Origin: Candidatus Wallbacteria bacterium | GTDB taxonomy: Bacteria > Muiribacteriota > JAQTZZ01 | Reading direction: 5' to 3' | Length of the DNA stretch: 64,000 bases | NCBI GenBank assembly: GCA_028687545.1 | Contig: JAQTZZ010000004.1 | Location: forward strand, 1-64,000 | Part shown: positions 23,560 to 50,743 of the stretch, in pieces | Layout of the letters: the number at the start of each line of letters is the position of its first letter | How positions within the stretch are numbered: position 1 is the stretch's first letter | Notes under the pieces: model-generated | Told to the model about the DNA's origin: nothing | The model's input: only the letters and a program-made list of their open reading frames with translations | The model's database searches: none | Position numbers and translations under genes: made by a program

Positions 23560-24762
23560 ATGAAAATAGGAATTGACGCCTCCAACATCCGCACAGGCGG
23601 CTGTCTGACACATCTTGTGGAATTATTGAGGGCAGCGCAGCCTGAAAAATACGGTTTTGAAAAGGTAATTGTCTGGGGCGGCAGTTCAACGCTCGCCAAA
23701 CTGGAAAAACGGCCCTGGCTTGAATGTCAGTACCAGCCGGAACTCGATCGCTTTAATCTTGTAAGAAGATATTGGCAAAAATTCAAGCTGACTAAACTGC
23801 TCAACCAAGGGAAATTCGACCTTCTTTTCGCACCTGGCTGCATCTACACCGGATCTTTCAGACCATATGCGGTAATGTCCCAGAACATGCTCCCTTTCGA
23901 ATGGAAGGAATCCATGAGATATGGAATGTCTAAGGGATTGCTGCGACTCGTCATTTTTTACGTGCTGCAGCGACATACGTTCAGAAATGCTGACGGATTG
24001 ATTTTCCTGACCAGCTATGCCAATGATGTAGTGATGAAATCCATAAAATCAGTTAACGGGAAGACTGTGATTATTCCTCACGGCATTGCAGCCAGGTTCA
24101 TGATGAAACCGCGGGTTGCAAAACCGCGTGAATGTTACTCTTTTTCCACTCCATTTCGCATCCTGTATGTTTCCACAATCGATATTTACAAGCATCAGTG
24201 GTTAGTGGTCGAAGCAGTTGCAAAATTGAGAAAAGAGGGCCTGCCGGTGGTATTGGATCTTGTCGGCCCTGCCTATAAGCCGGCTTTACCCAGACTGATG
24301 AAGGCGCTCCGGACGAATGATCCGGAAAATACGATAATCCGATATCTTGGTGCCGTGAATTATGAGAATCTAGTAGAGTGTTACAAGGGGGCCGACCTGT
24401 TTGTTTTTGCCTCCACTTGTGAGAATCTGCCGATCATTCTGATGGAAGCCATGTCTGCAGGACTGCCGATTGCCTGTTCCAATCACGGGCCTATGCCTGA
24501 AGTACTGGGGGAAGCTGGAACGTATTTTGACCCCGATAATCCCTCAAGCATCGGGACAGCCATCAAGAATATGGTGGAGTCACCGGAATTGAGGATGAAA
24601 GCAGCACAGGCGGCTTATGCCAAGGCTCAAAAATTCTCCTGGGAACGCTGTGCTGCGGAAACGTTTGAATTTCTGGCAAAAGTAGCGATAGGAGGACAGC
24701 TAGAACTTCAAGCTGAACAGCGGCGCAAAAACAAAGAGACTTCACTGGACCCTATAGACTGA
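23560..24762 (+). CDS. Glycosyltransferase family 4
   Basis: A 400-residue GT-B glycosyltransferase. The N-terminal half opens with MKIGIDASNIRTGGCLTHL, and the C-terminal donor domain carries FRILYVSTIDIYKHQ, VFASTCENLPIILMEAMSAG (the conserved E-x7-E region) and CSNHGPMPEVLGEAG. It is predicted to add a sugar to the growing lipid-linked glycan at the cytoplasmic membrane. It is the only plus-strand gene in the long minus-strand glycan block and ends with an 11-bp tail-to-tail overlap with the transaldolase-like gene. The sugar donor cannot be told from sequence. Confidence 0.85.
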   Translation: MKIGIDASNIRTGGCLTHLVELLRAAQPEKYGFEKVIVWGGSSTLAKLEKRPWLECQYQPELDRFNLVRRYWQKFKLTKLLNQGKFDLLFAPGCIYTGSFRPYAVMSQNMLPFEWKESMRYGMSKGLLRLVIFYVLQRHTFRNADGLIFLTSYANDVVMKSIKSVNGKTVIIPHGIAARFMMKPRVAKPRECYSFSTPFRILYVSTIDIYKHQWLVVEAVAKLRKEGLPVVLDLVGPAYKPALPRLMKALRTNDPENTIIRYLGAVNYENLVECYKGADLFVFASTCENLPIILMEAMSAGLPIACSNHGPMPEVLGEAGTYFDPDNPSSIGTAIKNMVESPELRMKAAQAAYAKAQKFSWERCAAETFEFLAKVAIGGQLELQAEQRRKNKETSLDPID

Positions 24763-25468
24763 AACCCGCTTTCTGGGCATCGTTATAAAACAGTTTTACC
24801 GTATCCAGTGAATAATCGTTTAAATCCTTACCGATCAGCGGTAATTTCTTTAAAATATCGTTGGTGACTGTAATGATGTGGCAGCCGATTGCATCAGCCT
24901 GGAAAATGTTAAGCAGTTCGCGCGGGCTGGCCCAGATAAGTTCTGCATTAGGCAGATCCCTTAACATCTCCACTGCCGCAGCCATCAGTGAAACCGGGTC
25001 GCGTCCGGTGTCTGCAATCCGGCCGGCAAAAATTGAGACATTGGCCGGCGCGCCACCTGAAAGACACGGCACCAGATCACGCACCTGGGATAGCGGCATC
25101 ATTGCAGTGACATTCAATTTGACACCGGCGTGGCTCAGACGGCGGACCAGGTCGTAAGATGGTTCCCTGCGCGTATTAGTGATCGGGATCTTGACATAGA
25201 CGTTTTTCCCCCATCCTGCTATCTCTTTCGCCTGCCTTTCCATCTCGGAAAATTCGTCGGAAAACACTTCGAAAGAAATCGGCCGGTCTGGAATTGACTT
25301 CAGTATATCGAGGGCAAAGGCGCGATAATCCTTGATTCCGGCCTTGCACATCAAAGTCGGATTCGTGGTAAAGCCCTTGATGAACGGTTTAGCGTACATT
25401 TCCAGCATGCCGGCCTTGTCAGCGCCATCGGCAAAAATCTTTACTTTCAAATCCTCAATTTTCTTCAT
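24752..25468 (-). CDS. Transaldolase / fructose-6-phosphate aldolase-like protein in heptose cassette
   Basis: About 238 residues from the ATG at 25468, which has an AAGGAG ribosome-binding site; a longer reading to 25540 would run deep into the preceding gene. It has the transaldolase family pattern (IFADGADKAGM, KGFTTNPTLM) and the Schiff-base lysine K93 in VYVKIPITNT, and ends near FYNDAQKAGFSL. Transaldolase can form sedoheptulose 7-phosphate, the substrate of GmhA, and the gene is the last of a cassette with GmhB, GmhA, HddC and HddA. A dedicated role in heptose supply is therefore a reasonable inference. Confidence 0.75.
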   Translation of the reverse strand: MKKIEDLKVKIFADGADKAGMLEMYAKPFIKGFTTNPTLMCKAGIKDYRAFALDILKSIPDRPISFEVFSDEFSEMERQAKEIAGWGKNVYVKIPITNTRREPSYDLVRRLSHAGVKLNVTAMMPLSQVRDLVPCLSGGAPANVSIFAGRIADTGRDPVSLMAAAVEMLRDLPNAELIWASPRELLNIFQADAIGCHIITVTNDILKKLPLIGKDLNDYSLDTVKLFYNDAQKAGFSL

Positions 25469-26003
25469 TCGATTCTCCTTTCTGCTTGAAAATCCATTCC
25501 ACTGCGCTTGTGATATTACAGGCTCTGCAATCCGGCTCAACCTGTTTCAGTTCAGTATAATGATAATCAATCAAAATCGTCCTGCAGCCGGCGTTCCGCC
25601 CGGCTTCAATGTCACGCCAGCGGTCACCGATCATGAAACTTTCTTTCAGGCTGATTCCAAATTCCTGGGCTGACTTCACCAGCGACCCTGTTCTGGGTTT
25701 GCGGCATTGGCATTGATCAGAGTCATCGTGATAGCAGACCTTGAAATCATCAATCGGCAGACTTGACCGCAATTCGGCGTTTATTTTTTCCACCATCGCA
25801 CGTGTCTGCGATCCTCTCGCCACATCAGGCTGATTAGTCACAACAATCAGTTTGAACCCGGCATCGTGCAGACTCTTCAGTGCCGCCTCAACGCCGGGCA
25901 GAATCTCAAGTTCCAGAAGGTCATGCGGAGGATATGGCTTGCCGTCACGCATCAGAGCGCGGTTGATGACACCGTCGCGGTCAAGAAAAACCGCCCGCCT
26001 CAT
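25455..26003 (-). CDS. gmhB: D-glycero-D-manno-heptose 1,7-bisphosphate 7-phosphatase (HAD-IIIA)
   Basis: About 182 residues in the HAD superfamily: nucleophile motif FLDRDGVIN, motif II VTNQPDVARG, a zinc-binding stretch CYHDDSDQCQCRKP and motif IV MIGDRWRDIEAG. GmhB removes the C7 phosphate of heptose bisphosphate. I prefer the ATG at 26003, which overlaps the GmhA stop by one base; an in-frame ATG at 26021 is possible but lacks a ribosome-binding site. The 3' end overlaps the transaldolase-like start by 14 bp. Confidence 0.88.
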   Translation of the reverse strand: MRRAVFLDRDGVINRALMRDGKPYPPHDLLELEILPGVEAALKSLHDAGFKLIVVTNQPDVARGSQTRAMVEKINAELRSSLPIDDFKVCYHDDSDQCQCRKPRTGSLVKSAQEFGISLKESFMIGDRWRDIEAGRNAGCRTILIDYHYTELKQVEPDCRACNITSAVEWIFKQKGESNEEN

Positions 26004-26599
26004 CAGCGGACTGATTCCCATTTTGTAGCGGATTTTTTCAACGCAGGGTGGGACACCATCAGATGCCAGACCGCTGCTTGAAACGCTTCAGTATGAGGAG
26101 TCACTGTTTCCGGATTAACTGTTGGAATTACGACGCAGGCATCCGCAACTTTGGCAGTGTAACCACCATCGCGTCCGACAATGCCTATCACCTGCGCACC
26201 GATCTGCCTGGCATACTGTAGTGCAGTCACAAGATTCGGGCTTACATTTTTTTCCAGATTTCCGCCCCCTACGGACAGGATGCAGATCATGTCTTCTTTA
26301 TCAAGATGACTTCCCTTGAGCCATTCCACAAAGATGCTTGCCCAGCCATCATCATTGGCCCTGGCAGTCAGTTCTGAGACATTGTCAGTCGGAGCATAGG
26401 CTTCAATCGCAGTGATTTTACGGAAATCATTCACAGCGTGCGAGCAGTTGGCCGCACTGCCGCCGATTCCCAGAAAAAACAGCCGTCCTCCGCGCTCGCG
26501 CAGAGCAGCCAGCAGAGATACCATCCGTTCAATCGAACCTGCATCCAGTTTTGCTGCAATAGCTGTCAGTTCCGTCAAGTGCTGCTCTGTATAATTCAT
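26003..26599 (-). CDS. gmhA: SIS-domain phosphoheptose isomerase
   Basis: A 198-residue SIS protein with FFLGIGGSAANCSHAVNDF, ILSVGGGNLEKNVS and VIGIVGRDGGYTAKVADA. GmhA converts sedoheptulose 7-phosphate to D-glycero-D-manno-heptose 7-phosphate. The catalytic neighbourhood of the flanking genes (GmhB, HddC, HddA) supports this rather than another SIS function. It overlaps hddC by 4 bp (ATGA). Confidence 0.85.
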   Translation of the reverse strand: MNYTEQHLTELTAIAAKLDAGSIERMVSLLAALRERGGRLFFLGIGGSAANCSHAVNDFRKITAIEAYAPTDNVSELTARANDDGWASIFVEWLKGSHLDKEDMICILSVGGGNLEKNVSPNLVTALQYARQIGAQVIGIVGRDGGYTAKVADACVVIPTVNPETVTPHTEAFQAAVWHLMVSHPALKKSATKWESVR

Positions 26600-27309
26600 G
26601 ATGTTCCATGCTCCTTTTCTGAAATATGCCGGCGAGTCTCTTCCAGGCCGGCCGGCGAACCGATCTCATAAAACCTCTCGTATACTTCAAAACCGGCCAG
26701 CTGATTCTGGGACAGGAGATCCTGGTAGACTGTAACCAGATCAAACGGCTTGCCGGCAGGATAATCCGACAGAGTTGCAGCCTGCAGAACACTTACTCCA
26801 TAATCAATGTGCTTCATTTCCGGAACCCGGTTGATTTTATTATAACTCACGATCCGTCCGTTCTCAAAAACAATATTGCTATTATCCCATTGATTCATGT
26901 TCTTGAACACTGTCATCAGCCCCAGTTTTCCTTTTTCATGAAACGCTTTTTCAATTGCCTGATAATCACACTCGAGATAACAATCGCCGTACAGCATGAA
27001 AAAAGCATTTCCCAGCGAAGGCAATGCTCTCCGCAGCGCTCCGCCTGTCCCGAGAAGCTCCGGGCCGTCGAAAATACAGGTTATCCGCATGCCCAGCCGC
27101 TGGCCGTCGCCTATTTCCGCCTGAATCTGCTCTCCCAGATAGCCCAGGCAGAGAACTGCCTCAGTCAGTCCGTTCTGACGCAGAAGCTTTAATTGATGGA
27201 CAATGAACGGCAGACCTGCCACTTCGATCAATGACTTGGGCATCTGCCCTGTCAGAGGCCGCAGACGTGTCGCCAGCCCTCCTGCCAGAATTGCCACAGG
27301 CAGGCTCAT
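26596..27309 (-). CDS. hddC: D-glycero-alpha-D-manno-heptose 1-phosphate guanylyltransferase-like
   Basis: A 237-residue sugar nucleotidyltransferase: LAGGLATRLRPLTGQMPKSL (activating motif), FIVHQLKLLRQNGLTEAVLC and FFMLYGDCYLECD. The order hddA-hddC-gmhA-gmhB matches GDP-heptose cassettes, in which HddC links heptose 1-phosphate to GMP. Relatives also use UTP or CTP, so the nucleotide is inferred from context. ATGA overlaps on both sides indicate translational coupling. Confidence 0.83.
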   Translation of the reverse strand: MSLPVAILAGGLATRLRPLTGQMPKSLIEVAGLPFIVHQLKLLRQNGLTEAVLCLGYLGEQIQAEIGDGQRLGMRITCIFDGPELLGTGGALRRALPSLGNAFFMLYGDCYLECDYQAIEKAFHEKGKLGLMTVFKNMNQWDNSNIVFENGRIVSYNKINRVPEMKHIDYGVSVLQAATLSDYPAGKPFDLVTVYQDLLSQNQLAGFEVYERFYEIGSPAGLEETRRHISEKEHGTS

Positions 27310-28286
27310 GTAGTCAGCACCTTGGTTCCTTCAAAATCAAATCTGAAACGCACTTCCTCGAGCCCTGCATTGATCATGGCATGGCGCAGTTTGGCGGTGT
27401 CCTTGGCGTAGAACATCAGAAATCCGCCTCCGCCTGCGCCGATCAGCTTGCCGCCGATAGCTCCGTTCTGCAGGGCCAGAGCATACCAGTCGTTTATTTT
27501 TTGATTGGACATGGCGCCTGAGCGTTTTTTCTTGAATTCCCAGTGCACATTCATCAGCTCGGCAAAGTGCATCACATTACCGGTTTCAAGTGCGGATTTG
27601 CTCTCAAATCCAAGTTTTTTTACAAAGTGCAGGTTCTCGATCATGTCAGTGCTGGATTTTTTGCTCTGGTCGTCCTGTTCTTTCAGGATGGATGAGGCTG
27701 AGCGGGAATAACCTGTGAAAAAAAGCAGAAGGTTATCTTCAAGATCATAGAGTGTTTCCTTGCTGATGCCCAGTGGATATGACTTTACCGTACCGTCTTT
27801 CTCAAACTCAAAACAGGTAATGCCTCCGTATGAGGCTATATACTGATCCTGCTTGCCGATCGGCTCCTTGAGCAGGTCTATTTCCACATGGCAGGCCTGT
27901 TCGGCCAGCTCTTTGGGGTGGATCAGGTTCCTGCGGAAAGTGTGCAGCCCTTTAAGCAGCGCGGTTGTGAAGCTGCCTGAGGAACCAAGGCCTGTACCGG
28001 CAGGTATGTCGGCCATGCTGGTCAGCTCAAAATACTCTTTTTTGAAACCAAGCAGCTTGAGCGATTCACGGATAATGGGATGCTTGATCTCGTTTACGTC
28101 TTCAGTGTGTTCCATCTGGGAGTATTTGATTATATAGCCGGGAGGGAAGATCCTGTGCAGCGTTATGTAGACATATTTATCGATCGCGCCGGCGATCAGA
28201 AAGCCGCCGTGATTTTCATAGTAAGAGCGGAGGTCTGTACCACCTCCCCCGAAAGTTATCCGAAGCGGACTGCGGGTGATAATCAT
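27306..28286 (-). CDS. hddA: GHMP-family D-glycero-D-manno-heptose 7-phosphate kinase
   Basis: A 326-residue GHMP kinase: substrate motif RSPLRITFGGGGTDLRSYY, ATP-binding PAGTGLGSSGSFTTALLKG, and motif 3 IGGKLIGAGGGGFLMF. HddA phosphorylates heptose 7-phosphate at C1 in the alpha configuration, which leads to GDP-heptose used in S-layer and capsule glycans rather than ADP-heptose for LPS core. It overlaps neighbours by 4 bp at both ends. Confidence 0.9.
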   Translation of the reverse strand: MIITRSPLRITFGGGGTDLRSYYENHGGFLIAGAIDKYVYITLHRIFPPGYIIKYSQMEHTEDVNEIKHPIIRESLKLLGFKKEYFELTSMADIPAGTGLGSSGSFTTALLKGLHTFRRNLIHPKELAEQACHVEIDLLKEPIGKQDQYIASYGGITCFEFEKDGTVKSYPLGISKETLYDLEDNLLLFFTGYSRSASSILKEQDDQSKKSSTDMIENLHFVKKLGFESKSALETGNVMHFAELMNVHWEFKKKRSGAMSNQKINDWYALALQNGAIGGKLIGAGGGGFLMFYAKDTAKLRHAMINAGLEEVRFRFDFEGTKVLTT

Positions 28287-29260
28287 TTGAGCTTACTCCT
28301 GTATATTTCGCCAACGATAGACAGAGCCCGATAAGCGTCTTCCAGATCGCCGCAAAGCGGTTTCCCGTTAACAATCGCTGCCGTAAATGAAGCGAATTCA
28401 AGCTGCCAGGATTTATCCTCACCGGGATATTCCCAGATTGTCGTTTCCGGTGGTCCCATTTCAGGCAGCATTCTGTAAAACGACAGGCGTTCCATGCCAT
28501 AGCTGCCTCCGAGGCCTTCGATCTGCAGTTTACCAGTCCTGCCATATATTTCAAGGCAGAACATGTTTTTCCATTCAGTGCAGGACACATGCAGCCAGGC
28601 CATTTTTCCGCCTGCAGTGCGCAGGGCCATGAAGCCGTTGTCATCAACCGGCATCTCCCAGAAATAGGTTGGGGCAAAGCCTGTCACATTCTCAAAATCG
28701 CCAAGATACCACCGTGCCAAGTCTATCAGGTGGACACCCTGGTCCAGAAGCTCCCCCCCGCCGGAAATTGCCTGGTCTGAACGCCATTCCTTCTGGTAGC
28801 CGATTCTCCCGCCGTGGCCATAGCGGCCACGGACAAACATCAGTTCCCCCAGGACTTTGCTGTCGATTATTTCACGTGCTTTCTGCATGGCCGGATGGCA
28901 GCGCAGGTTGAAACCAACTTTCACTCTGGAGTCAGACTTTCGGGACAGTTCCAGAAATGGCTTCAATTCCAGGGCTGAACGTGCGGCAGGTTTTTCAACC
29001 AGCACATGCTTATGGTGTTCCAGCGCATACTGCCCTATCGGAGTCAGCCAGTCGTTTGTTGTAGACACAATTACAAGTTCAACTTCAGGATGTGCTGCCG
29101 CCTTTCTCCAGTCAGCATAAAAAGTAGAACATTTACCAAGCTGTGCAACTTTTTCTGCCCGTTTCAGATCAGTGTCAGCAGTGGCCACGATGCGATGTCC
29201 CATCAGAGATCGAGCCCTTTTTTCGCCGATCAGCCCGCAGCCGATTATCGCAATATTCAT
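28283..29260 (-). CDS. Gfo/Idh/MocA-family oxidoreductase in heptose cassette
   Basis: A 325-residue oxidoreductase with Rossmann motif IAIIGCGLIGEKRA, catalytic-type lysine in HVLVEKPAARS and a C-terminal domain with GGGELLDQGVHLIDLARWYLGDF. It differs from the WlbA-like gene at 21072. Lying between hddA and an SDR gene with tight spacing, it probably oxidises or reduces the nucleotide-linked heptose or a downstream keto-sugar. The exact position acted on is unknown. Confidence 0.8.
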   Translation of the reverse strand: MNIAIIGCGLIGEKRARSLMGHRIVATADTDLKRAEKVAQLGKCSTFYADWRKAAAHPEVELVIVSTTNDWLTPIGQYALEHHKHVLVEKPAARSALELKPFLELSRKSDSRVKVGFNLRCHPAMQKAREIIDSKVLGELMFVRGRYGHGGRIGYQKEWRSDQAISGGGELLDQGVHLIDLARWYLGDFENVTGFAPTYFWEMPVDDNGFMALRTAGGKMAWLHVSCTEWKNMFCLEIYGRTGKLQIEGLGGSYGMERLSFYRMLPEMGPPETTIWEYPGEDKSWQLEFASFTAAIVNGKPLCGDLEDAYRALSIVGEIYRSKLK

Positions 29261-29264
29261 GTTT

Positions 29265-30128
29265 TCAGCTCCATTTCAGATTGCGGTCGGTAGGCACAAT
29301 CCTGCGCAGTGTATAAACATCAGTGCGTTGCAGATCAGCAGCATGTTCCTGCAGTGTTTCCCACGGATCCCAGACCGCACTGATCAATTTTCCCGTAATG
29401 CCGTTACTTTCGGCTGAAGCAAGATAGGCGCACAGGCTAGCCCCTTTTTCCAGGGGAATGCCTCCTGTTTCTTTCTGTTTCAGAGCTTTTTTGTAAAAAG
29501 GCTCTCCCACAGCTTGCGGCCCGGCTTCCAAGACTTCTTCCAGCAGGCGGGTGTTCAGAGCTCCAGGCGCCACAGCATTGATGTCTATCCCGAAATCGCG
29601 GTACTCTTCAGCCAGAGTTTCAGTCAGACGCACTACTGCGGCTTTGGAGGCAGCATAAGCACTGATCCTTGGCAGGGGATTGGTCGCACCTCCGCCTGAC
29701 AGATTGATGATTTTGCCGGAATTATTATTTTTCAGATGAGGAAGGAAATGTTTACAGGTGAAAAATACGCCTAAAAGGTTTATTTCAATAGCCTTAACCC
29801 ATTCACCGGTATCGATCTCCTCAAGCAACCCCTTGGGTCCGTATACACCCGCATTATTCACTAAAATATCAATGCGGCCCAATTCTTTCAGGCTTTTTTC
29901 GACGATTTTTTTGACATCCAATTCAAGGGAAACGTCTGCCTGCACAGCGATCACTTTCTGGTCAGGTCCGGCAATCGCCGATAGTTCCTTGGCAGCCTGT
30001 TTGAGCTTTGACAAATCCCGGCCACAGATCACCACTGAGGCGCCTTCCTGAATGAATTCTCTGGCAACAGCCAGCCCGAATCCCTGGCTGGCGCCTGTGA
30101 TTACAGCATTGCGATTAAAAAGCCTCAT
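29265..30128 (-). CDS. Short-chain dehydrogenase/reductase
   Basis: A 287-residue classical SDR: cofactor motif ITGASQGFGLAVA, NNAG, INLSGGGA and catalytic YAASK (ISAYAASKAAV). It starts in a 4-bp overlap with the preceding dehydrogenase-like gene and ends 4 bp before the Gfo/Idh gene. Three oxidoreductases in a row (30125-31414, this one, 28283-29260) next to a complete GDP-heptose cassette suggest stepwise modification of heptose, for example oxidation and epimerisation. The substrate is inferred only. Confidence 0.82.
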   Translation of the reverse strand: MRLFNRNAVITGASQGFGLAVAREFIQEGASVVICGRDLSKLKQAAKELSAIAGPDQKVIAVQADVSLELDVKKIVEKSLKELGRIDILVNNAGVYGPKGLLEEIDTGEWVKAIEINLLGVFFTCKHFLPHLKNNNSGKIINLSGGGATNPLPRISAYAASKAAVVRLTETLAEEYRDFGIDINAVAPGALNTRLLEEVLEAGPQAVGEPFYKKALKQKETGGIPLEKGASLCAYLASAESNGITGKLISAVWDPWETLQEHAADLQRTDVYTLRRIVPTDRNLKWS

Positions 30129-31414
30129 TTCTGCCTCCCCACCCGCACGTAATTGATGCCGCTGCAGCCAATCAGTTGTTTTTCAATGAAACCATTCGGA
30201 TCGATTACAACACACCCTGAAATTTCTCTGATCGTTTCCGGATCCAGTTCGCGGAACACAGGCCACTCTGTGGCTACTATCATGCAGTCTGCTCCCAGGA
30301 CCGCATTTTTGATGCTGTCAGCTATTGACAGTACACCTTTTAAACTGCCGGGTAATTCTTTGATACTTGGATCAAATGCTTTGATCACAGCGCCCTGTTG
30401 ATTCAGCCAGCAGCAAAGTTCGACTGAGAATGACCTTCTCAAGGTGTCGGTGCCTGGCTTATAAGTCAAACCCAGTACAGCCATCTGCCTGCCTGACAGC
30501 CCGCCGAAAATTTCCAGGCATTTTCTCTGAACCCAGCCTTTATGAAAGTCGTTGCTTTCCTTGACCGCTTTGATCAGATGCAGTGGAAGATCAAAGCTAT
30601 TGCCTGTTTCAGACAAAAACACGATGTCCCTTGCCAGAGTGCCTCCTGAAAAAGCAACGCCAGGGCTGAGGTATGCCTTGGGTCCGATCCGGTCTTCCGT
30701 TTTCAGGCCGCGCTCCACATCCTTAGCGTCAGCACCCACGCTTTCGCAGAGCACTGCAATCTCATTGGCAAAAGAGACCGAGGCAGCCAGAAATGCATTG
30801 ATGGCGTGTTTAGTCATTTCCGCGGATTCAATGCTCATCCACTCCAGCCTACTGCTGATTGCTGAAAATAAAGGCGTGAACAAGGCTTTCTCGTCAGGCA
30901 GGGAACCGATTATAATCCGGTCAGGTTCCAGAAACACCTTGATTGCCTTGCCTAGCCTTAAATTTTCAGGTGAATAGGCAAAAAAAAGTTCTCTGCCAGG
31001 GTCCATTTTATTGATTGCTGCTTTTAATTTTTTAGTGAAACCGGCTGGAACCTGCGAGGAAATAATTATTTTTACTCCGCTTTTCAATTTGGGTGCTATC
31101 GACATCAGCATATTTTCAATAAAGCCGGGATCAGCCACATCATTCTCGTTAACAGGAGTATCGAAAGTAACCCACAAGGCATCTATCCCGTTTAAAGCAG
31201 CAGATGCTTCGCTGCTGAAAGATAGTCTGCCGCTTTTCAGCCCTTCTTTGATTAAATCATCAAGCCCGGGTTCAGATAAAGGTGCTTTGCCCATCCGCAG
31301 ATCAGCAATATTGGCCTGATCAAAATCAAGCCCGGTCACATTGAAACCAAGTTCAGCCAGACAGGCGGCTGTAACGCATCCCAGATGCCATAATCCAAAG
31401 ACGCAGACTTTCAT
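30125..31414 (-). CDS. UDP-glucose/GDP-mannose dehydrogenase homologue lacking the catalytic cysteine
   Basis: About 429 residues from ATG 31414, which overlaps the preceding stop (ATGA). It has the full three-domain layout: N-terminal Rossmann (VCVFGLWHLGCVTAACLAE), central helix (AEMTKHAINAFLAASVSFANE) and C-terminal domain (VLGLTYKPGTDTLRRS). The catalytic loop that normally reads FGGSCxPKD reads FSGGTLARD, so the nucleophilic cysteine is a threonine (T259). The STVP and LREG motifs read SSQVP and LRLG. The lysine, asparagine and aspartate of the active site seem kept. A normal four-electron oxidation to a uronate is therefore unlikely; a single oxidation of a heptose nucleotide is one possibility. 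Confidence 0.8.
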   Translation of the reverse strand: MKVCVFGLWHLGCVTAACLAELGFNVTGLDFDQANIADLRMGKAPLSEPGLDDLIKEGLKSGRLSFSSEASAALNGIDALWVTFDTPVNENDVADPGFIENMLMSIAPKLKSGVKIIISSQVPAGFTKKLKAAINKMDPGRELFFAYSPENLRLGKAIKVFLEPDRIIIGSLPDEKALFTPLFSAISSRLEWMSIESAEMTKHAINAFLAASVSFANEIAVLCESVGADAKDVERGLKTEDRIGPKAYLSPGVAFSGGTLARDIVFLSETGNSFDLPLHLIKAVKESNDFHKGWVQRKCLEIFGGLSGRQMAVLGLTYKPGTDTLRRSFSVELCCWLNQQGAVIKAFDPSIKELPGSLKGVLSIADSIKNAVLGADCMIVATEWPVFRELDPETIREISGCVVIDPNGFIEKQLIGCSGINYVRVGRQK

Positions 31415-32367
31415 TTTACTTTCTCCAGCAGCCACTTGTTCCGCTCCAGATAACCAAGCGTTTTGAGGACTGAATCCCTGATTGTCAGCTTAGGCTGCCA
31501 TCCCAATGATCTGATTTTACCTGTGTCTAAATAAATCAGCGGGCTGTCGCCGATCCAGCCCCGCTCCCCACCGGCATATTCCAGTTCCGGTTTCAGTCCC
31601 AGGCAGCCCGTGATCCAGGCAATGGAATCATTAAGCTCGCAGAATTCATCAGTCCCCAGATTGAAAATGTTGATTTTTTCTTTTGATTTTTCAATTGCCA
31701 GCAGCATGGCTTCAATGCAATCTTCGACGTATAGGTATGATTTTTTCTGATGTCCGTTGCCAAGCACGAATAATTTGCCGGGATCGGCAAGCAGTTTTCT
31801 GTAAAAATCAAAAACGTGCCCGTGACTGTATCTCTCTCCCAGGATCGAAACAAATCTGAAGATGAAGCCTTGAAACCCGAATCCTTCGCAATAGGCCTGG
31901 ATCAGCCCCTCTCCTGCCAGTTTGGAAGCGCCATAGAGCGAAGTCTGAACTGGAAAGGGCGCGTTTTCAGGGGTCGGGAACTTATCCGGCTCTCCGTAAA
32001 TGGAGCCTGTAGATGAAAATGCGATCCGCCGGACGCTGTTTTTCCGCATTGCCTCAAGCACGTTGAATGTGGCGACAGTATTCTGTTCAAGGTCTTTCCG
32101 GGGATGCTCCGTGCCGAAGCGGACATCCGCATTGGCGGCAAAATGGAAAACAAAATCAGCTCCGTTCATCGCCTTGATCAGTCCCTCAGGATCAAGTAAA
32201 TCACCCTTGACCAGAGTGAATTTAGAAAAAGTCCGGCTGTTTTCCAGGAATCTGATCTGGCCTGTGGAGAAATTGTCGTACACGGTCACTGTGTGTCCGT
32301 CTTTCAGCAACCGGTCCACCAGATTGCTCCCGATAAAACCAGCTCCTCCGGTCACAAAATAATTCAT
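31411..32367 (-). CDS. NAD-dependent sugar epimerase/dehydratase (extended SDR)
   Basis: A 318-residue extended SDR with FVTGGAGFIGSNLVDRLL, FHFAANADVRFG, FSSTGSIYGEP, catalytic YGASK and FNLGTDE. It resembles UDP-glucose/UDP-GlcNAc 4-epimerases and the epimerases of heptose clusters. It is the first gene of the tightly overlapped block ending in the transaldolase-like gene, 17 bp after the GT2 gene. Its place beside the cysteine-less dehydrogenase suggests both act on the same nucleotide sugar. Confidence 0.83.
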   Translation of the reverse strand: MNYFVTGGAGFIGSNLVDRLLKDGHTVTVYDNFSTGQIRFLENSRTFSKFTLVKGDLLDPEGLIKAMNGADFVFHFAANADVRFGTEHPRKDLEQNTVATFNVLEAMRKNSVRRIAFSSTGSIYGEPDKFPTPENAPFPVQTSLYGASKLAGEGLIQAYCEGFGFQGFIFRFVSILGERYSHGHVFDFYRKLLADPGKLFVLGNGHQKKSYLYVEDCIEAMLLAIEKSKEKINIFNLGTDEFCELNDSIAWITGCLGLKPELEYAGGERGWIGDSPLIYLDTGKIRSLGWQPKLTIRDSVLKTLGYLERNKWLLEKVK

Positions 32368-49444: not shown

Positions 49445-50743
49445 ATGACTAAACTTCTAAAAAAGATTTCCAATAAGCAAGCTAAAATTGGCATTGTGGG
49501 CCTGGGATACGTCGGCCTGCCCCTGGCCTGCGAATTCGCTGCAGCCGGATTCCAGGTGCTGGGAGTGGACATCAGCCACGAAAAAATCGCTTCGCTGAAA
49601 AAGAAGGTCTCATATGTGCTGGATGTTCCGACTGTACGGCTGAAAAAATTGATAGATACAGGCAGGATGGAATTTTCGAGCGATTATTCCTTGCTCAGGA
49701 AAGCTGACTGCATCTCGATTGCAGTGCCTACACCTTTACGCAAAACCAAGGAACCTGATGTCTCGTATATTGTGAATTCAATGGCTGAAATCAGGAAGAT
49801 CCTGCATAAAGGGATGCTGATTGTGCTGGAAAGCACCACTTATCCTGGCACTACCAGGGAGCTGGTAGCCCAGGTAATTGAAAAGTCAGGCTTCAAGGTG
49901 GGAACCGAGATCCTGGTGGCTTTTTCGCCTGAGCGGGTGGACCCGGGTAATCCGAAATATCATACAAAAAATACGCCCAAAGTGATCGGCGGCATCACAG
50001 CTGCCTGCACTGAAGCAGCCTGTCAGCTCTATTCCTCAGTGATAGACACTGTTGTGAAAGTCGATTCCGCAGAGGAAGCCGAAATGGTGAAGCTGCTGGA
50101 GAATACGTACAGGGCAGTGAACATTGCTCTGGTGAACGAGATGGCACTGATGTGCGACAGAATGGGGATCAACATCTGGAACGTGATTTCTGCGGCAGCC
50201 ACCAAGCCTTTCGGATTCATGAGCTTTTATCCTGGCCCGGGCATTGGCGGCCACTGCATACCGCTTGATCCGACATATCTTTCCTGGAAAGCCAAGATGT
50301 TCGATTTTTACAACAGATTCATAGAGCTGGCCACTGATATCAACGGCAATATGCCGCGCTTTGTGCTGCAGAAACTTGCCAGAATCATGAACAGGGAAAA
50401 AATCCTTTTGAATGGTTCGAAAATACTGCTGCTTGGCGTGGCCTACAAGCCGGACATTAATGACCTGCGGGAGTCTCCTGCGCTGGAAGTTTACAGGCTG
50501 CTGAGAGATGTGCAGGCGAGTGTGGATTATTTTGATCCATATGTGAAGACAATCAGGGAAGGCGGTAAAATCATCAAGAGCATCCAGCTGACTGCGGCAG
50601 CGATCTCGAAATATGATGCAGTGATAGTGACTACCAGACACAGGGAGCTGGATTACGAGCTGGTTCTGAAGCATGCCGGCCTGATTTTCGACACCAGGGA
50701 TGCCTATCACGGGATTCAGGACAAAAAAATACACAGGCTGTGA
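49445..50743 (+). CDS. wbpA: UDP-N-acetyl-D-glucosamine 6-dehydrogenase
   Basis: A 432-residue nucleotide-sugar dehydrogenase: GIVGLGYVGLPLACEFAAAG, ESTTYPGTTRE, ENTYRAVNIALVNEMALM and the catalytic loop PGPGIGGHCIPLDP with its cysteine intact. The GHCIP form and NTYRAVN stretch are typical of WbpA/WecC/TviB rather than UDP-glucose dehydrogenase. It oxidises UDP-GlcNAc to UDP-GlcNAcA, feeding the epimerase directly downstream and possibly the WlbA-like enzyme at 21072. Confidence 0.88.
   Translation: MTKLLKKISNKQAKIGIVGLGYVGLPLACEFAAAGFQVLGVDISHEKIASLKKKVSYVLDVPTVRLKKLIDTGRMEFSSDYSLLRKADCISIAVPTPLRKTKEPDVSYIVNSMAEIRKILHKGMLIVLESTTYPGTTRELVAQVIEKSGFKVGTEILVAFSPERVDPGNPKYHTKNTPKVIGGITAACTEAACQLYSSVIDTVVKVDSAEEAEMVKLLENTYRAVNIALVNEMALMCDRMGINIWNVISAAATKPFGFMSFYPGPGIGGHCIPLDPTYLSWKAKMFDFYNRFIELATDINGNMPRFVLQKLARIMNREKILLNGSKILLLGVAYKPDINDLRESPALEVYRLLRDVQASVDYFDPYVKTIREGGKIIKSIQLTAAAISKYDAVIVTTRHRELDYELVLKHAGLIFDTRDAYHGIQDKKIHRL

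Follow-up and report, generated by a model that had tools for sequence, protein, structure and literature searches.

Genes at the locus

Nine genes lie on one strand of the window, the whole stretch of 64,000 nucleotides that was analysed, and overlap or abut with gaps of −19 to +4 bases. In the order that is nearly invariant across loci, they are as follows.

31411..32367, minus strand: SDRext, extended SDR of GalE type; probable NDP-heptose epimerase (from motifs)
30125..31414, minus strand: UGDH-T, UGDH homologue without the catalytic Cys (Thr259); proposed NDP-heptose 6-dehydrogenase (from sequence, domains and model)
29265..30128, minus strand: SDRcl, classical SDR; probable reductase of the UGDH-T product (from motifs and position)
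28283..29260, minus strand: Gfo/Idh/MocA oxidoreductase (EKP and DxGxH intact, NAD-type Asp29)
27306..28286, minus strand: HddA-like GHMP kinase, an anomeric kinase of the heptose 7-phosphate type (profile matches)
26596..27309, minus strand: nucleotidyltransferase of the MurU/HddC group (profile matches)
26003..26599, minus strand: GmhA-like SIS isomerase with altered metal/phosphate residues (H54, D58, E171, H179; SVGGG for STSGN)
25455..26021, minus strand: GmhB-like HAD phosphatase (profile matches)
24752..25465, minus strand: transaldolase (TIGR02134 above cut-off)

UGDH-T is a homologue of UDP-glucose dehydrogenase (UGDH). Its gene, whose coordinates 30125-31414 were given correctly in a preliminary description of the locus, lies on the minus strand, where it starts with an ATG at 31414, has a stop codon ending at 30125 and encodes a full-length protein of 429 aa. 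All three Pfam domains (PF03721, PF00984 and PF03720) were found, the family model TIGR03026 scores 306.8 bits against a cut-off of 189.8, and the closest solved relatives are ordinary UGDHs (4a7p, 3gg2 and BceC). The AlphaFold2 model, made with 45 homologues, is confident along the whole length (mean pLDDT 94.2) and superposes on BceC (2y0c-e) with a TM of 0.92, in line with the overall fold claimed previously. Judged by this model, UGDH-T is a sound protein with the UGDH fold and the architecture of the NDP-sugar dehydrogenase superfamily (UGDH/GMD/ManNAcDH). Full length, three domains and a confident fold rule out a fragment or broken gene. A second UGDH-family gene, UDP-ManNAc-dehydrogenase-like and with the normal GGHC cysteine motif, lies at 49484-50686 on the plus strand.

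A clade of wide distribution and its conserved cassette

UGDH-T is about 30-36% identical to ordinary UGDHs, and the best UGDH matches in related and more distant genomes, the window's own gene excepted, are at most 36% identical. Among 40 genomes of the window's own phylum the UGDH-T gene was present in one; no close relatives were found there, only ordinary UGDHs. The first true relatives came from Rhizobium megaplasmids (52%), plasmid 3 of Lawsonia intracellularis (44%) and IMG/VR contigs (50%). When these sequences were aligned and the alignment was used to scan 84,980 genomes, 192 relatives were obtained, of which the best 80 were kept; these 80 span 18 named phyla, with 77 bacterial and 3 archaeal loci. 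Overall identity within the clade is about 50%. In a quick tree search, the proteins with Thr at position 259 formed one clade apart from the Cys proteins, with an SH-aLRT of 100 on the dividing branch. Two divergent IMG/VR sequences fall inside it: L111, with GGTLGRD, and L110, with GGGSLQRD and thus Ser at this position, although the very long branch of the latter makes its place in the tree unsure. From the patchy spread of the gene and the nesting of archaea among bacteria we infer horizontal transfer, and its presence in one of the 40 genomes of the window's own phylum suggests that the UGDH-T gene was acquired in this way.

The same synteny is seen in bacteria, archaea, plasmids and IMG/VR contigs. 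Tight coupling to SDR, Gfo/Idh and HddA genes had been proposed in the preliminary description, and it is borne out by a census of the 36 loci having at least 3 kb of upstream and at least 8 kb of downstream sequence: SDRcl and SDRext occur in all 36, Gfo/Idh in 35 and HddA in 34, followed by SIS and the nucleotidyltransferase (30 each) and GmhB and the transaldolase (29 each). Linkage to hddA/hddC, raised in the same description as a test, is seen in 34 loci for the HddA-like kinase and in 30 for the nucleotidyltransferase. The complete nine-gene set is present in 28 of the 36, and homologues carrying Thr, which might have turned out to be rare and scattered, are neither rare nor scattered in context. 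Moreover, the nine proteins diverge together. All 36 pairs are correlated (r = 0.38-0.81), with at most 4 of 500 permutations as high; some of the strongest correlations link SDRcl to Gfo/Idh (0.80) and the activation enzymes to one another (0.64-0.81). SDRcl is encoded less than 1 kb from UGDH-T in 68 of 69 loci. The two stay paired even at L083, where the rest of the genes lie apart, and at L080, where the rest were not found; no activation genes occur within about 10 kb of UGDH-T in clade members L080 and L107.

In 26 loci a GT2 of one cluster, dolichol-phosphate-mannose-synthase-like by eye, is encoded upstream or nearby, and in 12 loci the same holds for a GtrA protein. These neighbours suggest that the sugar is passed to polyprenyl phosphate in some hosts.

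Several loci depart from the prototype. The Lawsonia cassette (L026), which has the same gene set in an annotated record, has as its neighbours a membrane protein of the LPG-synthase type and large (about 1,090 aa) hypothetical proteins. On one IMG/VR contig (L110 6039-13501), apparent phage primase and terminase genes, assigned by eye, stand beside a divergent cassette. It comprises SDRext, HddA, nucleotidyltransferase, transaldolase, SIS and the Ser-containing UGDH relative, which appears truncated; the place of GmhB is taken by a histidine-phosphatase-like gene. Another (L108 3825-16280) holds the whole cassette; SDRext and HddA are separated there by an inserted GIY-YIG homing endonuclease, and DNA-methyltransferase-like genes lie close by. 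In cassettes of Lentisphaerae and Verrucomicrobia (L033 14549-16951 and L071 15635-18428), identity drops to 32-43% for HddA, the nucleotidyltransferase and GmhB, a far greater divergence than in the modification genes, which remain conserved; the pattern looks like the exchange of part of the activation module.

Probable loss of the second half-reaction

Alignment to ordinary UGDH upheld the three altered motifs listed in the preliminary description. The cysteine motif reads FSGGTLARD (residues 255-263), with Thr259 at the place of Cys260 (S. pyogenes numbering); STVP has become SSQVP, with Gln121 at the place of Thr118; and FLREG has become NLRLG, with changes at Asn151 and Leu154. Beyond that list, Tyr10 is replaced by His10 and Gly9 by Trp9. 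We compared 89 clade members with 19 ordinary UGDHs. Thr259, Gln121 and His10 are each present in 89/89 clade members, where ordinary UGDHs have Cys, Thr and Tyr (19/19 each). Asn151 (Phe in ordinary UGDHs) occurs in all 89, Leu154 (Glu) in 88 and Trp9 (Gly) in 87. Conserved throughout the 89 are Glu150, Lys202, Asn206, Arg242, Asp263 and Arg326, and 87 have the NAD-type Asp30. The clade also has Ala/Pro at index 406, a weak resemblance to the Ala of GDP-mannose dehydrogenase.

In the genome set, the best 80 of 192 relatives, Thr259, Gln121 and His10 are each found in 80/80, as are Lys202, Asn206 and Asp263, the first-oxidation residues (Lys204, Asn208 and Asp264 of UGDH). A sequencing error or lone mutation behind Thr259 is thereby ruled out. 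So is an artefact of the search motif: neither peptide pattern of the genome scan, FA[CY]SPENL or [KR][IL]EWM[SG][VI]E, covers residue 259, which leaves the Thr count in this set unbiased by the search.

Eighteen positions are invariant among 229 NDP-sugar dehydrogenases (PMC4794789). By that list UGDH-T retains 14 and has lost Gly9, Thr118, Gly257 and Cys260; it also lacks Tyr10 and Glu145, whereas Lys204, Asn208, Asp264, Glu141 and Arg244 are retained. In UGDH, Asp264 acts as general base via a water, Lys204 and Asn208 stabilise the first oxidation and Arg244 contacts the 2''-OH; Cys260 is the covalent catalyst of the second oxidation, Tyr10 catalyses thioester hydrolysis and Thr118 holds the catalytic water (PMC4794789). 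The residues for thiohemiacetal, thioester and hydrolysis have thus been lost jointly while the first-oxidation set stays, which points to retention of the first half of the reaction and loss of the second. Going by this pattern, the active site probably cannot make a uronate, and UGDH-T very likely performs one two-electron oxidation of some NDP-sugar. The earlier idea, that a heptose nucleotide undergoes a single two-electron oxidation or else some different reaction, accordingly gains support from residues and cassette linkage, the exact sugar and nucleotide being a matter of interpretation. Two points qualify this reading of the residues. The water common to Thr118 and Asp264 serves the first step, so the change of Thr118 to Gln may alter step one as well, and removal of the Cys by itself leaves some second-step activity, since UGDH C276A can still oxidise added aldehyde (PMC3184952).

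Could Thr259 itself serve as the covalent nucleophile, through a hemiacetal and then an ester, so that hepturonic or hexuronic acid is still made? The Thr stands exactly at the Cys position, the divergent phage-like relative L110 has Ser there, and UGDH C276S builds up a covalent adduct (PMC3184952). Accumulation of that adduct, however, indicates that the route is not efficient, Tyr10 and Thr118 are lost as well (80/80), and the adjoining reductase-type SDR better suits a carbonyl product; we therefore regard this possibility as improbable. A role of UGDH-T as scaffold or regulator, with catalysis lost, appears highly improbable. Several family-invariant residues are indeed gone, but a dead protein would be expected to lose its catalytic and NAD-site residues too, and Lys202, Asn206, Asp263, Glu150, Arg242 and the NAD site show little or no variation across 18 phyla at about 50% identity.

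Sugar activation genes point to a heptose

Isomerase, anomeric kinase, phosphatase and nucleotidyltransferase occur together in the window, as they do in most of the loci whose flanks are long enough. None of the four reaches the cut-off of the specific models: the HddA-like kinase scores 155.7 bits against 600, the nucleotidyltransferase 69.4 against 300 for HddC (with comparable scores as MurU, HddC and archaeal GlmU) and the SIS isomerase 50.1 against 209 for GmhA, and the GmhB-like phosphatase lies below the cut-offs of GmhB-specific models. The transaldolase is the only activation enzyme above its specific family cut-off (TIGR02134) and the only PF00923 protein found in the window's genome. 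A transaldolase can supply sedoheptulose 7-phosphate from F6P and E4P. The pairing of kinase and phosphatase fits heptose activation, because no mutase can move the terminal phosphate, which must then be removed.

The SIS protein has a His-Asp-Glu-His set (H54, D58, E171, H179) where GmhA has His-Glu-Gln-His, with Asp/Glu for Glu/Gln in 52/52, and its clade has SVGGG plus an insertion for the GmhA phosphate motif STSGN. These changes are consistent with an isomerase that may act on a different sugar phosphate than GmhA. Elsewhere the same genome encodes a GmhA of canonical appearance, which at 200 bits falls slightly short of the cut-off, and an HldD that exceeds its own, so the cassette would represent a second, distinct heptose route. 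Given the divergence of the activation enzymes and the loss of part of the GmhA phosphate motif from SIS, an octose or another C7 aldose is possible. Altogether, it seems quite likely that the substrate of UGDH-T is a heptose or longer NDP-sugar.

Proposed reaction and pathway

In the pathway that we propose, the transaldolase would yield a ketoheptose phosphate, which the SIS protein would isomerise; the HddA-like kinase would then phosphorylate C1, the GmhB-like phosphatase would take off the terminal phosphate and the nucleotidyltransferase would activate the sugar to NDP-heptose. UGDH-T would bind NDP-heptose as UGDH binds UDP-glucose, with C6 toward NAD+. Since C6 of a heptose is a secondary alcohol, hydride transfer would give a 6-ketone. 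No second hydride can leave from a ketone, hence neither thiohemiacetal oxidation nor a thioester would arise, and Cys, Tyr10 and Thr118 would become dispensable. Thr, His and Gln could have replaced them in a pocket altered for the extra CH2OH, with Trp9, His10, Gln121 and His203 predicted to occupy the places of the lost residues. There is a precedent for such chemistry: PMC10680097 relates, after Read et al. 2004, that ADP-heptose is epimerised by oxidation and reduction at C6. The heptose substrate, the C6 position, the step order, the product, the sugar configuration and the nucleotide are what we infer here. We would give the C6 ketone an even chance of being the product, and a chance slightly better than even to UGDH-T being an NAD+-dependent NDP-heptose 6-dehydrogenase that does only the first half of the UGDH reaction.

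In SDRcl the Ser-Tyr-Lys set is intact and Arg37 is of the NADP type (79/79 each), and by these signatures SDRcl probably reduces the UGDH-T product; it could reduce or reshape the ketone, for instance by inverting C6. With NAD indicated for UGDH-T (D30) and NADP for SDRcl (R37), NAD+ oxidation and NADPH reduction by different enzymes would make the pathway run one way. These cofactor types also bear on the opposite possibility, that in the cell UGDH-T acts as a reductase on an NDP-keto-heptose or an aldehyde coming from the SDR or Gfo/Idh enzymes. The half-reaction of the dehydrogenase can run in either direction, and three further oxidoreductases are encoded alongside, yet the NAD-type Asp30 (87/89) and a Lys/Asp catalytic set like that of oxidising relatives, next to an SDRcl with an NADP signature, render it quite improbable.

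Another way to stop after one oxidation would be to oxidise a primary alcohol, C7 of a heptose or C6 of a hexose, and halt at the aldehyde. The resulting dialdose could then be used by SDRcl or Gfo/Idh, e.g. through enolisation to epimerise C6, and C7 oxidation followed by C6 deprotonation is one of four C6-epimerisation routes in PMC10680097. The residue pattern of UGDH-T would halt such an oxidation equally well. The sugar would, however, have to shift by one carbon from its pose in UGDH, even though Arg244, the 2''-OH contact in UGDH, is invariant, and a free aldehyde, unlike a ketone, is reactive and would call for protection. We consider the dialdose unlikely and retain the 6-ketone as the preferred product.

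Gfo/Idh and the GalE-type SDR would complete the sugar, destined for a surface glycan. SDRext has STGS-YG and YxxxK and lacks the TDE signature, which we take to be the mark of 4,6-dehydratases; a dehydratase is accordingly not favoured, and its motifs make SDRext a probable NDP-heptose epimerase. Its median identity across loci, 68% against about 50% for UGDH-T, places it among the most conserved cassette proteins and suggests a strongly constrained substrate. Against the HldD family model TIGR02197 it scores about 71 bits (cut-off 274.6); UGDH-T is not an SDR and falls outside that family.

No papers on the UGDH-T clade, the cassette or a Cys-less UGDH were found among the open-access papers searched. 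The only annotated relative encountered, that of Lawsonia, is labelled a nucleotide sugar dehydrogenase and agrees with the general family model; label and fit together imply a uronate product. As a tentative overall picture, somewhat short of an even chance, a previously undescribed pathway of nine genes, spread horizontally, found in no fewer than 18 phyla of bacteria and archaea and also carried by phage-like contigs, would make an NDP-heptos-6-ulose with a UGDH-derived dehydrogenase devoid of the second half-reaction, and from it a surface heptose that is new or not yet tied to genes. If so, a four-electron dehydrogenase has been cut to a two-electron one by a shift to a substrate reacting at a secondary alcohol, the cassette offers a signature in gene content for a heptose pathway that is widespread yet unrecognised, and NDP-heptose C6 oxidation has an example outside the HldD family.

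Comparison with known systems

UGDH-T shares with known UGDHs (BceC 2y0c-e, the S. pyogenes enzyme 1dlj and the human enzyme 2q3e) the three-domain fold, the NAD site and the Lys204/Asn208/Asp264/Glu141/Arg244 set. In contrast to them, it is without the catalytic Cys, Tyr10, Thr118 and Glu145, belongs to a separate clade and is encoded in a heptose-type cassette. With the GDP-D-glycero-D-manno-heptose pathway (GmhA, HddA, GmhB, HddC) the cassette has in common an isomerase, anomeric kinase, phosphatase and nucleotidyltransferase in the same order; unlike in that pathway, all four counterparts are divergent and below cut-offs, a dedicated transaldolase is added and the isomerase differs from GmhA in its metal/phosphate residues.

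The proposed step resembles that of HldD, as described in PMC10680097, in being an oxidation at C6 of an NDP-heptose with reduction after it. HldD, a single SDR, performs the two steps itself, on ADP-heptose; in our proposal they would be divided between two unrelated proteins that use different cofactors. The modification enzymes listed in PMC10680097 include no UGDH homologue, and neither UDP-glucose nor a transaldolase is mentioned there; for the C6 chemistry of the C. jejuni HS:3/HS:4 clusters, the same source states that the enzyme could not be identified. Heptose modification in C. jejuni is similar to our proposal: NDP-heptose is remodelled there by a dedicated single-oxidation dehydrogenase and then a reductase. 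The C. jejuni set (the C4-dehydrogenase Cj1427, C3/C5 epimerases and C4 reductases) acts through a C4 ketone, unlike the C6 ketone proposed for UGDH-T.
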